DNA from: Holophagaceae bacterium
GTDB taxonomy: Bacteria; Acidobacteriota; Holophagae; Holophagales; Holophagaceae
DNA length: 52,784 nt
Direction: 5' to 3'
NCBI GenBank assembly: GCA_017859995.1
Contig: JAFJUR010000001.1
Span: 1-52,784 of the forward strand
The number at the start of each line of letters is the position of its first letter. The first letter of the stretch is position 1. The notes beneath the pieces are model-generated. The model was given only the letters and a program-made list of their open reading frames with translations, was not told where the DNA came from and searched no databases. The translations under genes were made by a program, and so were the position numbers. Shown piece by piece: positions 32,882 through 48,039 of the stretch.

Positions 32882-35565
32882 GAACCTTCCTCCGGCAGGG
32901 ATGGGGGCGCTCCCAGGGGCAAGGTGACCAGGAACTGGGCCCCGCCTTGAGGGTGGTTGACCGCCTGGATGCGTCCTCCATGGGCCGTCACGATGCCTCT
33001 GCAGATGGCCAGCCCGAGACCAGCGCCGGGGCGGCTGGCGGCGGCTTCGCCCCGGGCAAGCTTCTCGAAGATCCGATCCGCTTCGCCTTCGGCAATGCCT
33101 GGCCCCTGGTCCGTCACCGAGATGGTGACGGTGTGCTGGGTCGTCCAGACCTTGATGTCCACGGGTGACCCGGCAGGGGAATACTTCATGGCGTTGTCCA
33201 GCAGGTTCAGGAGCACCTGCTCCATGAGCACCGGGTCCATGGATACGAGCGGCGGGGCGTCAGGCAGGAGCGTCCTGACGCGGGCGGCATCAGGACCCAG
33301 CTCCCGCCGGTTGAGCACGGCCCCGATCAACTCCTCCACTGGGATCCACTCCGTCTGGAGGTCGAGCGTCCCGGATTCCAGGCGGGTGATGTCGAGCAGG
33401 TTGCTGACCAGCCGGTGCAGCCGTTGGGCCTCCTCCTGGGCCGTGGTCAGCAGGTCCCGGCGGGTGCTTTCCGGCAGGTCGGGAGTCTCCAGGGCGGTGC
33501 TGACGGCGCCCGTGATGACGCCGAGGGGTGTTCGCAGGTCGTGGGAGACGGAGCTGAGCAGCGCATTCCGCAGGCGCTCTTCGTCGGCGCGCCGTCGGTC
33601 CGCATGCCCCTGTTCGGCCAGAATCGCCCGCTCCAGGGCCAGGGCGGTCTGGTTGGCGAAGGCTTCCAGCAGCTGGTGCTGATCCGGCTCGCTCCACTGG
33701 GGCGCACCATCGGGCAGGACCCCCATCACGCCCAGGGTGCCACGGGTGCCGCGGAGGGGAAGGTACGTGGCGCGGGCGCCGGGGAGCGTCAGCGTGCCGA
33801 GGCCCGCGGGCTCACCGTGTTCGAAGACCCACTGGGCCACCCCCCGTTCCTGGTCGCCCAGGGGAAAACCCTGGGAATGCACGAGGGCGGCCAGGTTGCC
33901 GCCCGAGTCCGGGAGAAGGACCACGGCATGGCTGTGGAACTGGTTGGCCACCGTCTGGATGGCGGTGGCCACGAGGGCCGTGGAGCTGGCGCTCTGGGCC
34001 AGTTCCTGTCCGAGGCGGTAGAGCGCCTGGGTGCGCTGCTCGCGGCTCCGGGCCAGGCGGGCCTGGGCCTTGATCCGCTCGGTCAGGTTCCCGATGACCA
34101 CTCCCACCAGCAGCATCACGGAGAAGGTGCCCACATGGCGGAAGTCCGAGACCACGAACGTGAAATAGGGCGGGATGAAGATGAAGTCGAAGGCGGCCAC
34201 GCTCAGCAGGGAGGCGAGCAGCGAGGGCCCCCGGCCGAACCGGGTGGCCACGATGAGGATGCCCAGCAGGTAGACCATGACGATGTCAGCCAGCTCCGCG
34301 CGCCGAAAGACGATGCCCGCCACGGTGGTCGCCATGCCGACAGCCAGCACGCTCAGCAGGTAGTTCCGGAGCGGGCTGGTGATGCGGGCGCGCAGGCCGG
34401 GCTTGGGTCCGGTCGCAGCAGCCTCGCCCGTGATGACATAGATGTCGATGTCGCCGCTGGCCCGGATCAGGTCATCGACCGGAGAGCCGGCCAGCAGATC
34501 GAGCCAGCGGGAACGGGTGGGCTTCCCCACCACGATCTTGGTGATGTTGCGGTCCCTGGCGAAGGTCAGGATGTCTTCGTCGGCCCGCCCACAGCCTTCG
34601 AGAACCACGGTCTCGCCGCCGAGCTTCTCCGCCAGCCGCAGATTGGCTTCCACCCGTCCGCGCTCCTCCTCGCTGAACCGGAGGTGCCGGTGTGATTCCA
34701 CATAGAGGGCCACCCAGGATGCTCCGAGGGAACCGGCCATGCGCCGGGTGGCGCGGATCAGCCGTTCAGAGAGACCGTCGGGACCGACGCAGACCAGCAG
34801 CCGTTCGCCGGCGGCCCAGGTCTTCCGGATCCCCTCCGACTCCATGTAGCGCCGCATCTGGGCGTCCACATTCTCCGCGGTGTGGCGCAGGGCGAGTTCA
34901 CGCAGCGCGAGGAGGTTCCCCTTCCGGAAGAAATGGTCCTTCGCATGGCGGGCCTGGTCGGGCAGGTAGACCTTCCCCTCCTTGAGCCGGACCAGCAGGT
35001 CGTCCGGAGAGAGATCCACCAGCTCGATCTCGTCGGCCCGCTCGAGAATCGTATCGGGCACATTCTCGCGGACGAGGATCCCCGTGATCTGGGCCACCAC
35101 GTCCTTGAGGCTCTCCAGGTGCTGCACGTTCATGGTGGTGTAGACGTCGATGCCCGCGTCCAGCAGCTCGAGCACGTCCTGCCATCGCTTCGCGTGCCGG
35201 GAGCCCATCACGTTGGTGTGGGCCAACTCGTCCATGAGGATCAAGCCCGGCTTCCGCGCCAGCGCCGCTTCCAGATCGAACTCCGGAAGGAACTGGCCGG
35301 AATAGGCGAGTTCCTTCCGGGGAAGCACCTCGAGCCCCTCGGTCAGGGCCGCCGTCTCGCTGCGGCCGTGGGTTTCCACCACGCCGATGAGCACATCCTC
35401 GCCTTCCGCACGCCGTTCCTGGGCTTCCGAGAGCATGGCGTACGTCTTGCCGACGCCCGGGGCCGCCCCGAAAAACACCTTCAGCTTGGCCCGCTGCTGG
35501 ATGGCCTCCGCCTCCTGCACCTGGCGGAGCAGCTGGTCAGGGTCGGGCCGGCGGGGTTCGGGCAT
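32878..35565 (-). CDS. kdpD: KdpD potassium/turgor sensor histidine kinase
   Basis: An 895-aa membrane kinase. In order: KdpD N-terminal domain with Walker A GAAPGVGKTYAM (about 33-44) and DELAHTN; a Usp-like domain (about 245-370, VGKPTRSRWLDLL); four close helices (about 395-500); a GAF domain (about 525-650); HisKA with the phospho-His in SVSHDLRTPLG (about 675) and HATPase_c (NLLDNAMKYSP, DQGPGI, GAGLGLAI). Length and order are those of full-size KdpD. It follows kdpC after 42 bases. Confidence 0.97.
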   Translation of the reverse strand: MPEPRRPDPDQLLRQVQEAEAIQQRAKLKVFFGAAPGVGKTYAMLSEAQERRAEGEDVLIGVVETHGRSETAALTEGLEVLPRKELAYSGQFLPEFDLEAALARKPGLILMDELAHTNVMGSRHAKRWQDVLELLDAGIDVYTTMNVQHLESLKDVVAQITGILVRENVPDTILERADEIELVDLSPDDLLVRLKEGKVYLPDQARHAKDHFFRKGNLLALRELALRHTAENVDAQMRRYMESEGIRKTWAAGERLLVCVGPDGLSERLIRATRRMAGSLGASWVALYVESHRHLRFSEEERGRVEANLRLAEKLGGETVVLEGCGRADEDILTFARDRNITKIVVGKPTRSRWLDLLAGSPVDDLIRASGDIDIYVITGEAAATGPKPGLRARITSPLRNYLLSVLAVGMATTVAGIVFRRAELADIVMVYLLGILIVATRFGRGPSLLASLLSVAAFDFIFIPPYFTFVVSDFRHVGTFSVMLLVGVVIGNLTERIKAQARLARSREQRTQALYRLGQELAQSASSTALVATAIQTVANQFHSHAVVLLPDSGGNLAALVHSQGFPLGDQERGVAQWVFEHGEPAGLGTLTLPGARATYLPLRGTRGTLGVMGVLPDGAPQWSEPDQHQLLEAFANQTALALERAILAEQGHADRRRADEERLRNALLSSVSHDLRTPLGVITGAVSTALETPDLPESTRRDLLTTAQEEAQRLHRLVSNLLDITRLESGTLDLQTEWIPVEELIGAVLNRRELGPDAARVRTLLPDAPPLVSMDPVLMEQVLLNLLDNAMKYSPAGSPVDIKVWTTQHTVTISVTDQGPGIAEGEADRIFEKLARGEAAASRPGAGLGLAICRGIVTAHGGRIQAVNHPQGGAQFLVTLPLGAPPSLPEEGS

Positions 35566-42271: not shown

Positions 42272-42469
42272 TGGGCTCCCCGGACAGCTGGCGGGTCGAA
42301 AAAAAGCGAAACCTTGATCGGCGATCTTCCTCCGCGGAACCAGGCCAGGCCGGCGAGAACGTGGCCGCGAGGTCATGAATTTCGCCATTCTCGATGAGAA
42401 TCGCCAGGTTATGCGTCGATTTCGCTTTTATTTCCGCTTGTTGCCTTTCTGGGTCTTTCTAGACTTTGA

Positions 42470-42514
42470 AGTGGTTCTCAGTGGAGAAAAGTGGTTCGAA
42501 GTGGATCAAAGTGG
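42470..42514 (+). promoter_or_regulatory. MraZ operator: five AGTGG boxes at 10-bp period
   Basis: AGTGG starts at 42470, 42480, 42490, 42500 and 42510, each separated by five other bases. MraZ proteins bind short G-rich direct repeats (TGGGN in E. coli, AAAGTGG-type in mollicutes) spaced by one helical turn upstream of their own gene. The array ends 53 bases ahead of mraZ. A weak -10-like TAGACT (42460-42465) lies directly upstream, so bound MraZ would cover the transcription start. Confidence 0.85.
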
Positions 42515-42567
42515 TCTCGCTCCGGTTCGTTCTCTCCGTTTGGGTAACTGGTTGAAAGGCGTTACCG

Positions 42568-43044
42568 GTGCTGCGACTTCGCGGAAACTCACCGGCCACG
42601 GTGGATGAGAAGGGGCGTCTGAAGCTCCCCACATCCTTCAAGGCCGAGCTGGAATCCTTCGCCCAGGGCGAGGGGAGCGGAGCCCTGGCCGGCACCCTGC
42701 GGCACTACCTCACCTCCCTGGACGGGCGGTCGGCCCGGCTCTATCCCCTGCCGGTCTGGGAGGCCATCGAAGCCCGCCTGGCGGCCCTGCCGTCCACCAG
42801 CCCCGCCAAGCGCAAGTTCCTGGAGACCACCGCCTACTTCGGCAGCGAAGTGGAGCCCGACGCCCAGGGCCGCTTCGTCATCCCGCCCATCCTCCGCGAA
42901 GCCGCGCAGCTCACCGGCGAAGTCGCGGTGCTCGGGCAGATGGACCACCTGGCCCTGTGGAACAAGGCCGGCTTCGAGCGCCGCCTGGCGGCGGAACCGC
43001 TGGGCGCCGACGACCTCGCCCAGCTCGCGGACCTGGGGATCTGA
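42568..43044 (+). CDS. mraZ: MraZ, transcriptional regulator of the dcw cluster
   Basis: A 158-aa AbrB-like protein with two SpoVT/AbrB-type repeats: RGNSPATVDEKGRLKLPTSFK near the start and EPDAQGRFVIPPILRE near 93-108. GTG start at 42568 with AAAGG eight bases ahead; the N-terminal MLRLRGNS replaces the usual MFRGNS. It sits behind the five-box operator and presumably represses or tunes the cluster. Its stop overlaps the rsmH start (TGATG). Confidence 0.95.
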   Translation: MLRLRGNSPATVDEKGRLKLPTSFKAELESFAQGEGSGALAGTLRHYLTSLDGRSARLYPLPVWEAIEARLAALPSTSPAKRKFLETTAYFGSEVEPDAQGRFVIPPILREAAQLTGEVAVLGQMDHLALWNKAGFERRLAAEPLGADDLAQLADLGI

Positions 43045-44009
43045 TGATGACCGCCCAGCCCCCCGTCCATGTCCCCGTGCTGCTCCAGGAGGTCCTCGAC
43101 AACCTGGTGCTGCCGCCCGCGGCGCGGATCCTCGACCTCACCCTCGGCCTCGGCGGCCACGCGGAAGCCCTGCTGGCGCGGGCCGACGGCCAGTCCCGCT
43201 ACCTGGGCGTGGACCGCGACCCCGAAGCCCGCGACCTGGCGCGTCAGCGCCTGGGCGCGGACGCCCGGCTCACCATCCTGCCCGGCACCTACGAGGACCT
43301 GTGGGAGAACGCCTCGTTCCTCGCCTGGCGGACGGCGGAGGCCCCCGGCGGGTTCGACGCGATCCTGGCCGACCTCGGGGTGTCCACCCTGCAGCTGCGC
43401 AGCCCCGGAAGGGGCTTCAGCTTCCGGGACGAAGGGCCCCTCGACATGCGGATGGATCCTGAGCACGGCCTCTCCGCCCGCGCCTGGATCGCCGAGCAGA
43501 CCGATGAGAGCCTCGCCGACGCCATCTACCATTACGGCGAAGAGCGCGCCAGCCGGCCCATCGCCCGGGCCATCCTCCGGGCCCTGCAGGACGGCCGCCT
43601 GGAGACCACCCACGACCTGGCCCAGGCCGTCTACCGGGTCATCCCCAGGGAGCCCGCCAAGCGGAAGGGCCACAGCGACCCCGCCACCCGCACCTTCCAG
43701 GCCATCCGCATCGCCGTCAACGGCGAGCTCGACCGGCTGGCCGCCGCCCTGGAGGCCGCCGTCGGCCACCTCCGCCCCGGCGGGCGCCTGGCGGTCATCA
43801 GCTTCCACAGCCTCGAGGACCGCATCGTCAAGCAGACCCTGCGCCGCCTCGCGGGCATCTACGACGGCCCGGGCCGCACGGCCCCGGTCGAGCTCCCCCG
43901 CATCGTGAAGCTCATCCACGCCGGCGGCCTCGCACCCAGCGACGCCGAAGCCGCCGCGAATCCCCCCTCCCGGTCCGCCCGCCTGCGCGTGGCGGAACGG
44001 CTCGCCTGA
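43044..44009 (+). CDS. rsmH: 16S rRNA (cytosine(1402)-N4)-methyltransferase RsmH
   Basis: A 321-aa SAM-dependent methyltransferase acting on 16S rRNA C1402. HVPVLLQEVLDNLV, DLTLGLGGHAEALL (SAM loop), VDRDPEA, ADLGVSTLQL and VISFHSLEDRIVKQ are the family motifs. Two adjacent in-frame ATGs exist (43044, 43047); the first overlaps the mraZ stop. Confidence 0.97.
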   Translation: MMTAQPPVHVPVLLQEVLDNLVLPPAARILDLTLGLGGHAEALLARADGQSRYLGVDRDPEARDLARQRLGADARLTILPGTYEDLWENASFLAWRTAEAPGGFDAILADLGVSTLQLRSPGRGFSFRDEGPLDMRMDPEHGLSARAWIAEQTDESLADAIYHYGEERASRPIARAILRALQDGRLETTHDLAQAVYRVIPREPAKRKGHSDPATRTFQAIRIAVNGELDRLAAALEAAVGHLRPGGRLAVISFHSLEDRIVKQTLRRLAGIYDGPGRTAPVELPRIVKLIHAGGLAPSDAEAAANPPSRSARLRVAERLA

Positions 44010-44021
44010 ACGAGGTCCCCC

Positions 44022-44387
44022 ATGGCCACCGGAACCCTGCCGAACGCCTCCTCCACCCGCATGGTGGAGAGCGAGGGCATCCTCCGCATGCTGCTGCTGG
44101 TGCTGGCCCTGGCCATGCCCCTGGGCACGCTCGCCTACCTGAAGATCCAGAGCACCCGCATGAGCTACGCCATGGGTGAGATCAAGGAGCGCATCCGCAA
44201 GGAGGAGGAGTTCCAGCGCAAGCTCATGCTGGAACGCAGCCGCTACCAGCGCGAGGAGGAGGTCCAGGTCTACGCCCAGAAGGCGGGGCTCCAGCCCCGG
44301 AAGCAGGGGCACCTCATCCGGCGCTCCTTCACGGCGGAAGATCAGCGCATCGCCAAGCTCCGTCCGGTCTCGTCCGAGGCGCTGTAG
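44022..44387 (+). CDS. ftsL: FtsL-like cell-division protein
   Basis: A 121-aa bitopic protein: a short cytoplasmic N-terminus, one helix (about 21-40, LRMLLLVLALAMPLGTLAYL), then a charged coiled-coil (about 45-80, MGEIKERIRKEEEFQRKLML and on). Size, topology and place between rsmH and ftsI identify the FtsL/DivIC position of the divisome, although FtsL sequences are too variable for motif proof. Confidence 0.8.
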   Translation: MATGTLPNASSTRMVESEGILRMLLLVLALAMPLGTLAYLKIQSTRMSYAMGEIKERIRKEEEFQRKLMLERSRYQREEEVQVYAQKAGLQPRKQGHLIRRSFTAEDQRIAKLRPVSSEAL

Positions 44388-44443: not shown

Positions 44444-46585
44444 GTGTCCCTCCGCTTCGCCACTGAACCACCCAGCTCCCGGCGCCTGCTGGGCCGGCAG
44501 GATCCCCAGGACCTGCTGCCGCGGCGCATGCCCTGGATCATGGGTGCCATGGCCTTCTGGGCCCTGCTCATCCTCCTGCGGCTGGTGTGGCTCCAGGGCA
44601 TCGAGCACAAGCGCTACCGCGCCAAGGCCGACCAGCAGCACACCACCGTGGTGCCGGTGCCGCCCATCCGGGGCGAGCTGCGGGACCGCCGCGGCGAGCC
44701 CCTGGCCATCTCCATCAAGGTCGAGAGCCTCTTCGCCGATCCCCGCGTGTTCTACCCGGACTACCGCGCCGGGCGCGGGGAGGAGCGGCTCTGGGGCAAC
44801 CCGGACCGCAAGTTCGCCAGCGAGGTGGCCGCGAAGCTGGCGCCGATCCTCGAGCAGACCCGGGGGCAGGTGCTGGACAAGCTCCTGCGGAAGAAGACCT
44901 TCGTCTACCTGGAACGCCACCTTCCGCCCGTGAAGGTGGCGGCCATCCGCGCCCTGAACCTGGACGGCATCGAGTTCCAGCCCGAGAGCCAGCGCTTCTA
45001 CCCCCGGGGCAGCCTCGCGGCGCAGATCATCGGCTTCACGAACATCGACGGCCTGGGCCAGCTGGGCATCGAGCAGACCTATGACAAGCAGCTGATGGGG
45101 GTGAAGGGCGAACTCATCGCCCCGCGGGACGCCCACGGCAAGCTGCTCATCCTGCAGGAGAACTACAGCCAGATCCCCGTGAACGGGGCCTCGCTGCAGC
45201 TGAGCCTGGACGCCTCCATCCAGCACATCGTGGAGGACGCCCTCGAGGAGGGGGTGCGGCTCTCCAGGCCCCGCACGGCCTACGCGGTGGTGGTGGATCC
45301 CCAGACGGGCGAGATCCTGGCCATGGCGGGCACGCCCACCTTCGACCCGAACCACATCCTGCCGAAGAAATTCCGGAACCGCGCCGAGTCGGAGCTGTCC
45401 AACGCCGAGCGCGAGGAGCTGCGCCGTGAGCTGGAGCGCCAGAAGGCCGCCCGCAAGGTCCACCCGGTGGAGGATGTCTACGAGCCCGGTTCGACCATGA
45501 AGATCTTCACAGCGGCCATCGCCCTGGAGGAGCGCAAGGTCCGCCTCGGCGAGCGCATCGACTGCCTCGGCGGGCGCTGGCTCTACAGCCCCAAGGTGCC
45601 GCCCATCACCGACACCCACCACCACGGCGTCCTGTCCTTCGAGGAGATCCTCTGGCAGAGCTCCAACGTCGGCGCCGCCAAGATCGGCATCCGCCTGGAC
45701 CCCGCCGTGCACTACCAGTACCTGCGCAAGTTCGGCTTCGGCGATGCCACGGGGCTCAACTTCCCCGGCGAGAGCGCCGGTCGCATGATCGCGCCGGACC
45801 GCTGGAGCGTGCCCACCCAGTACACCTTCTCCTACGGCTACGGCCTGAACACCACGCCGCTGCAGATCCTCATGGCCGGCTGCGCGCTGGCCAACGGCGG
45901 GAAGCTCATGCAGCCGATCCTCGTGCAGCGCATCTACAACGACAAGGGGCTCCTGCTGAAGGAGTTCAAGCCCACGGTGCGGGGCCAGGTGCTCACGGAG
46001 GAGACGGCGAACCTCATGAAGGAGACCCTCAAGGGCGTGATCACGCAAGGGACGGGCAAGCGGGCCAAGCTCGACAACGGGGTCGAAGCCTTCGGCAAGA
46101 CGGGCACCAGCCGCAAGCTCATCGACGGCAAGTACGATCCCCGGCGCCACTTCGCCTCCTTCATGGGCTTCTTCCCGGCGGACAAGCCGCAGTACGGCGT
46201 GCTCGTGATGCTGGACGACCCTGCGGGCGACACCACCGGCGGCGACGTGGCGGCCCCGCTCTTCAAGCGCATCGGCGACGGCATCCTGCGCTTCCGCGAG
46301 ACCTCGCCCGATCCGGACCGCGAGGCCGACCTCAAGCTCTCCCTGCGCGACTGGCCCGTGAGCGAGACAGACGAGGCCGCCGTGCACGTGGAGCGCGGCC
46401 GGGTGCCGGATCTCACAGGCCTGAGCCTCAAGGCCGCCATCCACCGGGTGGTGCTCGTGGGCGGCCAGCCCAAGGTGGAGGCCGCGCCGGGCGCCACCGC
46501 CACGCGCGTGCTGGGCCAGAGCCCCGAGCCGGGCACGCCGCTGGAACCGGGAGCGGTGGTCAAGATCAAAGCGGGGACCTCATGA
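44444..46585 (+). CDS. ftsI: peptidoglycan D,D-transpeptidase FtsI (PBP3) with C-terminal PASTA domain
   Basis: A 713-aa class B penicillin-binding protein that cross-links septal peptidoglycan. One helix near 34-50; PBP dimer domain about 70-240; transpeptidase with S350-T-M-K353, S406-S-N408 and K552-T-G. A PASTA domain (about 653-710) ends the protein, as in SpoVD and PBP2x. A charged helical stretch (about 313-342, rich in Glu, Arg and Lys) is inserted just before the active-site serine. The GTG at 44444 has no clear ribosome site; an ATG at 44528 would remove the cytoplasmic N-terminus. Confidence 0.94.
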   Translation: MSLRFATEPPSSRRLLGRQDPQDLLPRRMPWIMGAMAFWALLILLRLVWLQGIEHKRYRAKADQQHTTVVPVPPIRGELRDRRGEPLAISIKVESLFADPRVFYPDYRAGRGEERLWGNPDRKFASEVAAKLAPILEQTRGQVLDKLLRKKTFVYLERHLPPVKVAAIRALNLDGIEFQPESQRFYPRGSLAAQIIGFTNIDGLGQLGIEQTYDKQLMGVKGELIAPRDAHGKLLILQENYSQIPVNGASLQLSLDASIQHIVEDALEEGVRLSRPRTAYAVVVDPQTGEILAMAGTPTFDPNHILPKKFRNRAESELSNAEREELRRELERQKAARKVHPVEDVYEPGSTMKIFTAAIALEERKVRLGERIDCLGGRWLYSPKVPPITDTHHHGVLSFEEILWQSSNVGAAKIGIRLDPAVHYQYLRKFGFGDATGLNFPGESAGRMIAPDRWSVPTQYTFSYGYGLNTTPLQILMAGCALANGGKLMQPILVQRIYNDKGLLLKEFKPTVRGQVLTEETANLMKETLKGVITQGTGKRAKLDNGVEAFGKTGTSRKLIDGKYDPRRHFASFMGFFPADKPQYGVLVMLDDPAGDTTGGDVAAPLFKRIGDGILRFRETSPDPDREADLKLSLRDWPVSETDEAAVHVERGRVPDLTGLSLKAAIHRVVLVGGQPKVEAAPGATATRVLGQSPEPGTPLEPGAVVKIKAGTS

Positions 46586-48039
46586 ACCTGGACGCGCTCA
46601 TCGACGGGGTCGCCCGTCGCCACTCGGGACCGGATGTGGAGGTGGTGGACCTCACCTCCGACAGCCGTGAGGTGGGCCCAGGCTGGGCCTTCCTCGCCTT
46701 GAAGGGCGAGAAGGCCGACGGCGCCGCCTTCGCCGCCCAGGCCGTGGCCCGGGGCGCCTGCGCCGTCATTTCCGAATCGCCCGTGGCGGTGCCCGCCGAC
46801 GTGGCGGCCTGCACCTTCCTCGCCGAGCCGCGGCTGCGCATGGCGGAGATGGCCCGCCGGCTGCACGGCACGCCCGACGAGCGCCTGGCCCTCGTGGGCG
46901 TCACCGGCACCAACGGCAAAACCACCACCACCACCCTCATCCGCCAGCTGCTGCGCGGCGCGGGCCTCGGCTGCGGGCTGGTGGGCACCGTGCTGAACGC
47001 CGCGGGGGACCTGGAGGAAGAGGCGGTCCGCACCACGCCGGAAAGCCCGGCCTTCTACCGCTGGCTCGGCCGCAGCGTGCGGGCCGGGGACGCCGCCTCG
47101 GCGGTGGAGGTGAGCAGCCATGCCCTCTGCCTGGGCCGGGTCCATGGCGCGCGCTTCAAGGTGGGCGTCTTCACCAACCTCACCCAGGACCACCTCGACT
47201 ACCACGGCACCCTCGAGGCCTACTTCCAGGCCAAGGCCGCCCTGCGGGACCAGAGCGAGCGCTTCCTGGTGAACGGGGACGACCCCTACGGCCAGCGCCT
47301 CCTGGAGGGGGGCCGTTGCTGGAGCTATGCCCTGGACCACGAGGCGGACTACCGGGTCTCGGACCTGCGGCTGGGGCCCACGGGCACCACCTTCCACCTG
47401 CACGCCCTTCAGGGCGAGTTCGAGGTGGCCAGCCCGCTGCTCGGCCGCTTCAACGTCTACAACCTGCTGGCGGCCCTCGCCGCCGGCGCCGAGGCGGGCT
47501 TCGACCTGGGCCGGCTGGTGGCCGCCGTGCCGGCGGTGACGGGGGCCCCGGGGCGCCTCGAGCGGGTGGACTGCGGCCAGCCCTTCGGCGTGATGGTGGA
47601 CTACGCCCACACGCCGGACGCCCTCGAGAAGCTGCTGGCCGAGGGGAGACGGCTGCTGCCGCCGGGCGGTCGCCTGCATGTGCTGTTCGGCTGCGGCGGC
47701 GACCGGGACCGGACGAAGCGGCCCCTCATGGCCGCGGCGGTGGCGGCAGGGGCCGACGTGCTCTGGCACACCAGCGACAACCCGCGCACTGAGGATCCGG
47801 AGGCCATCCTGGACGACGCGGCGCCGGGCATCCCCGCGGCGCTCCGCGCCGATGCGGACCGCTACCACCGCGACGCCGACCGCCGCGAATCCGTGCGCCG
47901 GGCCCTGGCGGACTGCCGGCCCGGCGATCTGCTGCTGCTGGCGGGCAAGGGCCACGAGCCCTACCAGGAGATCCACGGCGTGAAGCATCCCTACAGCGAC
48001 CGCGGCGCGGTGGAAGCGGTGCTTGGAGCCTCGCGTTGA
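46582..48039 (+). CDS. murE: UDP-MurNAc-tripeptide synthetase MurE (meso-DAP type)
   Basis: A 485-aa Mur ligase adding the third residue of the peptidoglycan stem. The ATP loop is GVTGTNGKTTTT (about 109-120); SSHAL and TNLTQDHLDYHG follow. DNPRTEDP near 405 is the meso-diaminopimelate-specific motif (lysine enzymes lack the Arg). The ATG overlaps the ftsI stop by four bases. Confidence 0.97.
   Translation: MNLDALIDGVARRHSGPDVEVVDLTSDSREVGPGWAFLALKGEKADGAAFAAQAVARGACAVISESPVAVPADVAACTFLAEPRLRMAEMARRLHGTPDERLALVGVTGTNGKTTTTTLIRQLLRGAGLGCGLVGTVLNAAGDLEEEAVRTTPESPAFYRWLGRSVRAGDAASAVEVSSHALCLGRVHGARFKVGVFTNLTQDHLDYHGTLEAYFQAKAALRDQSERFLVNGDDPYGQRLLEGGRCWSYALDHEADYRVSDLRLGPTGTTFHLHALQGEFEVASPLLGRFNVYNLLAALAAGAEAGFDLGRLVAAVPAVTGAPGRLERVDCGQPFGVMVDYAHTPDALEKLLAEGRRLLPPGGRLHVLFGCGGDRDRTKRPLMAAAVAAGADVLWHTSDNPRTEDPEAILDDAAPGIPAALRADADRYHRDADRRESVRRALADCRPGDLLLLAGKGHEPYQEIHGVKHPYSDRGAVEAVLGASR

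Follow-up and report, generated by a model that had tools for sequence, protein, structure and literature searches.

MraZ, which regulates division genes in bacteria, is widely conserved. The B. cenocepacia promoter PmraBc carries four 7-nt repeats with 3-nt spacers, which lie past the -10 element and overlap the start site, and a dcw promoter fragment with these four repeats is bound by MraZ, according to the accessible part of the report (PMC7761207). For M. genitalium MraZ, two cryo-EM entries released on 2026-02-04 are titled 'in complex with its promoter' (PDB 9R4J) and 'in complex with 4 box promoter' (PDB 9SZ7). Going by these titles, structures are only now beginning to show how a ring-shaped protein recognises repeats set in a row, and the site in question has four boxes. 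The MraZ box of the Mollicutes is AAAGTG[T/G], which in M. genitalium is found solely at the mraZ promoter (PMC8475190, accessible part). Our literature search, beyond whose reach several key MraZ studies lay, found none describing a five-box MraZ site.

The array and its setting at mraZ

The window, that is, the whole stretch of 52,784 nucleotides analysed here, contains five exact AGTGG boxes, read directly from the + strand at 42470-42474, 42480-42484, 42490-42494, 42500-42504 and 42510-42514. The initial annotation had reported five such boxes at a perfect 10-base period before mraZ, and this description proved exact. The register corresponds to about one box per helical turn. When the full five-box pattern was scanned at up to three mismatches, the window gave a single match, and none of 100 dinucleotide-preserving shuffles gave any. 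Since the sequences one period 5' of box 1 (TAGAC) and one period 3' of box 5 (CTCCG) are not boxes, the box count is exactly five. As 7-mers, the boxes read GAAGTGG (box 1), TCAGTGG (box 2), AAAGTGG (box 3), GAAGTGG (box 4) and AAAGTGG (box 5). Given the exact boxes and their conservation in the genus (see below), the segment 42470..42514 (+ strand) is a predicted five-box MraZ operator.

Three in-register RRTGG boxes were then sought in the assembly (3,226,663 bases in 258 contigs, 88.7% complete). They occur solely within the array, as three overlapping matches, while a reversed control pattern gave none; the 3.2 Mb scan thus found no three-box site beyond that at mraZ. A pair of AGTGG boxes at 33336-33350 on the - strand was considered as a second MraZ target and rejected. 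The pair falls within an 895-aa ORF on the same strand and the assembly has no other three-box site, and we therefore attribute it to chance.

The first gene 3' of the array is mraZ (42568..43044, + strand; 158 aa, GTG start, TGA stop), the only MraZ match in the assembly, with 98 nt between the start of box 1 (42470) and the GTG codon. It is followed on the same strand by rsmH (mraW; 43044..44009; PF01795, E-value 2.4e-87), whose start codon was picked by eye and whose ATG overlaps the mraZ stop by one base, and by an ORF of 121 aa that matches no Pfam family (44022..44387) and is ftsL-like by position only. Next come an FtsI-type penicillin-binding protein that includes a PASTA domain (44444..46585; PF00905, PF03717 and PF03793) and a Mur ligase (46582..48039; PF08245, PF02875 and PF01225), which is called murE by its position.

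The mraZ product matches PF02381 with an E-value of 2.6e-18, scoring 66.2 bits where the family cut-off is 23. Its two half-domains carry the DxxGR motifs DEKGR (residues 13-17) and DAQGR (98-102); both motifs, with D13, K15, R17, D98, G101 and R102, are invariant across 21 aligned MraZ proteins. The predicted monomer model has a mean pLDDT of 87.2, with residues 36-41 below 50. Compared with solved structures, it gives Z scores of 17.2-18.7 to five MraZ entries from M. pneumoniae and M. genitalium, and 5.1 to the next unrelated entry, indicating that the window protein, as modelled, has the MraZ fold. The loop past the first half-domain (residues ~31-45, encoded at 42658-42702) is longer in the five Holophagaceae MraZ proteins than in the 16 others. 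In the Holophagaceae proteins this loop has low model confidence, and its length differs even within the genus.

Since a consensus sigma-70 scan of the region upstream of mraZ called no promoter, promoter elements were assigned from hexamers conserved in the genus. The putative -35 element is TTGTTG (42438..42443, + strand), which begins with TTGT in 37 of 37 genus sequences and is TTGTTG in 23 of them. The putative -10 element, TAGACT (42460..42465, + strand), is TAGACT in 28, TACACT in 8 and TAAACT in 1 of the 37. The two are separated by 16 nt, and the -10 element ends 4 nt 5' of box 1. We infer a transcription start near 42472, about 7 nt past the -10 element, from which the boxes would span about -2 to +43. 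A likely ribosome-binding site, GAAAGG, can be read at 42554..42559 (+ strand).

Box number in Geothrix, its relatives and other phyla

The locus of one genus genome (G001, L034) is identical over 945 bases to that of Geothrix rubra Red803 (NZ_BSDD01000001.1, L148), which identifies the genus as Geothrix in the GTDB sense. The source is a Geothrix-type bacterium of soils and sediments. NCBI taxonomy places Geothrix in the Holophagaceae, Holophagae, Acidobacteriota. We surveyed 47 genomes of the genus with an RRTGG x4 pattern, two overlapping matches of which amount to five boxes; this and all other box surveys detect RTGG-containing boxes at 10-base spacing only. Lack of conservation of the boxes in relatives had been set beforehand as a refuting outcome, but the boxes were retained: 46 of the 47 genomes have exactly five, with no further match. 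The lone exception, G064, is a genome 58% complete that gave no MraZ match. The neighbouring gene was covered in 43 of the 46 genomes (G062, G068 and G069 being left out). The mraZ start lies 92-99 nt 3' of the array in 37 of 37 genus loci, and MraZ is also 3' of the array in 25 of 25 pattern loci, which comprise 6 further genus genomes, 16 repeats of earlier ones and 3 from other genera.

The 37 arrays, 25 of them distinct, align without an indel, though their distance to the GTG codon varies. The TGG core is invariant in all five boxes (entropy 0). Mean column entropy is 0.11 bits in the boxes and 0.67 in the spacers, and rises to 1.38 over the 45 nt that follow the array and 1.63 from -90 to -45. 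Box variants (AATGG or GGTGG) occur in boxes 1, 3, 4 and 5, while box 2 hardly varies. The invariant core, together with a box entropy below that of spacers and flanks, argues that all five boxes are under selection. Inspection by eye also revealed, in several Geothrix genomes (L003, L009 and L015), a hairpin followed by T's (GACACGC..GCGTGTC-TTTTT) just 5' of the promoter. In those genomes it adjoins a conserved TTTATTT stretch 5' of the -35 element; by eye, no such hairpin was seen in the window.

Across the phylum, an RTGG x4 survey of 297 Acidobacteriota genomes found five boxes in 25, namely 22 Geothrix genomes plus a single genome from each of three further Holophagaceae genera, and in none of the 270 genomes outside the Holophagaceae. 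Two more Holophagaceae genera have no match to RTGG x4, yet have MraZ; by eye, their loci show the five-slot grid with TTGG as the single weakened box, the third in L229 and the fourth in L232. Five slots are therefore kept in 6 of 6 Holophagaceae genera sampled, with one weakened box in two of these. Four-box matches outside the family number 30, in 26 genomes; of the 21 that were placed, 19, each in a different genome, lie at mraZ and 2 elsewhere. A sample of 23 relatives outside the Holophagaceae was picked regardless of boxes, and 2 of these had no MraZ match. In the 21 compared, the longest run 5' of mraZ comprises three boxes in 9 relatives, two boxes in 5 and a single box in 7. One locus of the same class (L056, family f2; by eye also L052-L054) has, 5' of mraZ, two boxes (ATGGACTAAAATGGAC) between a -35-like TTGCGG and TATAAT. 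Read by eye, these two boxes seem to fill the spacer between the hexamers, and the operator may therefore sit between the promoter hexamers there, and not after them.

The idea that five boxes are special was not supported by a wider search. Scanning GTDB-representative contigs for GTGG repeated five times at a 10-base period gave at least 119 loci, in which MraZ was called with a profile built in this analysis and phylum was assigned by record title. Among the loci listed, 44 have MraZ; the 75 without MraZ in the fetched DNA were excluded from the operator count. In 44 of the 44 listed loci that hold both, the array is 30-300 nt 5' of MraZ, which associates five-GTGG arrays with mraZ across phyla. 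Five of the 44 belong to Geothrix or other Holophagaceae (including the Holophagaceae loci L087, L102, L105 and L109), and at least 39, with five or more GTGG at mraZ, to seven other phyla: Actinomycetota (22), Bacillota (10), Pseudomonadota (3), and Eremiobacterota, Verrucomicrobiota, Planctomycetota and Chloroflexota (1 each). Nocardioides, Clostridium and Weissella are examples. Six boxes are present in two of the scan matches listed from these seven phyla (L063 and L088) and in one locus (L247) from the RTGG x5 samples described next.

Even samples were searched with RTGG x5, leaving out the seeds and taking all sampled genomes as denominators, irrespective of mraZ presence. A five-box array at mraZ was found in 3 of 197 genomes from the phylum of Nocardioides (one with six boxes), 1 of 198 from that of Clostridium and 0 of 199 from that of Marinobacterium. 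The Bacillota match (G688) is not independent of the scan, as it is the same contig and array as L096. In total, 16 genomes, 3 of them seeds, had a five-box match, with the array at mraZ in 7 and elsewhere in 9; several of the latter are plain tandem repeats. Five-box sites thus turn up repeatedly but infrequently among bacteria, and in Geothrix they are fixed. Two individual loci differ in detail. Upstream of mraZ in a Pirellulales MAG (L112), the five boxes are perfect tandem copies of GTGGGGATTT and look recently duplicated; such tandem duplication is a possible route for growth in box number. In a Lachnospiraceae MAG (L140), five boxes 5' of mraZ lie past a TAAAAT, and two extra GTGG stand just before that TAAAAT, about 3 bases off register.

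A putative autoregulatory operator and its alternatives

Taken together, these data make it very probable that the array is an ordinary, putative MraZ autoregulatory operator of the Geothrix dcw cluster, with one extra box that is selectively kept. In such an operator, MraZ would act as a ring of double AbrB-like subunits, and neighbouring subunits would, by analogy, engage one box after the next on the same face of the DNA. Bound MraZ would cover the start site of transcription and roughly the initial 43 bp of the transcribed region; by the same kind of analogy, it would thereby block initiation and repress its own operon. The fifth box would most likely lengthen the bound arc or add affinity, with no new mechanism. 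Counterpoints to the operator reading are the sigma-70 scan that called no promoter, the incomplete match of boxes 1, 2 and 4 to the Mollicutes 7-mer, and the weak or few boxes of some same-class relatives, with 7 of the 21 lacking any two in register.

The working unit could, however, comprise four boxes, the number known from M. genitalium and B. cenocepacia, with the fifth as a spare that offers two registers or a buffer against box loss. This possibility, which differs from the explanation above solely in the role of the fifth box, deserves serious consideration, although we do not favour it. The solved M. genitalium complex is titled as one with a four-box promoter, two Holophagaceae genera have the TTGG-weakened box described above, and the Geothrix variants spare hardly any box but box 2, all of which would suit a unit of four. 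On the other hand, a TGG core that is invariant in all five boxes of 37 of 37 arrays, and the presence of five in 46 of 47 genomes, exceed what would be expected of a dispensable box.

The initial annotation had suggested that a strict register of five boxes would fit an MraZ octamer or dodecamer wrapping the promoter as a ring, which is a fair hypothesis. A further structural proposal is that, in the Holophagaceae, five subunits contact the DNA simultaneously by means of a larger, or more flexible, MraZ ring, perhaps helped by the longer loop of the N-terminal domain. Operators of three to six boxes would then represent different ring-DNA arrangements, and not one fixed unit. We regard this as rather unlikely.

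It is very improbable that the repeats are a G-quadruplex, in DNA or in the transcript, and not protein-binding boxes. According to the accessible part of PMC11796246, a quadruplex just 3' of the mraZ promoter of S. aureus lowers expression in the presence of a ligand, and further bacteria are claimed to have conserved motifs at mraZ; the invariant GG doublets of the array are compatible with this in principle, and a weak two-layer quadruplex may form from them. However, the G-tracts of the array are no longer than GG doublets, which stand 8 nt apart (G4Hunter 0.51 across the array, 0.64 in the best 25 nt), and a quadruplex needs neither the strict period nor the invariant T of TGG. Least credible of all is that the repeats act at the level of the leader RNA, in a 5' untranslated region that is structured or binds protein: the boxes would lie within the transcript, given the start site inferred above, but the folding z-score is -0.93, with 39 of 200 shuffles folding equally well, and one-turn phasing with variable spacers is typical of double-stranded DNA binding.

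Comparison with known MraZ sites

The preferred reading, an MraZ operator with one extra box, can be set against the sites described elsewhere. As far as the accessible part of the B. cenocepacia report goes, PmraBc and the Geothrix array share a 10-base period and a location 5' of mraZ, which at PmraBc is 3' of the -10 element and over the start, and in Geothrix 3' of the putative -10 element and probably over the start; the B. cenocepacia site has four repeats and shown binding, whereas the Geothrix array has five, to which MraZ would bind. The M. genitalium complexes (9SZ7 and 9R4J) contain a protein with the same fold as the window MraZ model (Z scores of 17.2-17.9) on what their titles give as a multi-box mraZ promoter, but with four boxes compared with five in Geothrix, and the two MraZ proteins have 23% identity over the aligned part. 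With the Mollicutes box, as given in the accessible part of its source, the array has in common GTG-core direct repeats 5' of mraZ and a sole chromosomal site (for Geothrix, within the assembly); the Mollicutes 7-mer is matched exactly by two of the five Geothrix boxes (3 and 5) and partially by boxes 1, 2 and 4. The initial annotation had also stated that the array has more boxes than described MraZ sites, which agrees with the four of B. cenocepacia and the four-box M. genitalium complex, as far as these sources are accessible.

Geothrix, with five boxes fixed, the families of its class, where the loci examined have no more than three in register, and the scattered five- and six-box loci form a natural series, which would be useful for asking how box number sets the affinity and stoichiometry of MraZ. 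Five- and six-box arrays at mraZ elsewhere are scattered and uncommon, whereas five boxes are fixed in Geothrix. Judged by its sequence, the architecture is of the known MraZ-operator kind, one box above the four-box sites, and a count of five is uncommon, not unique.
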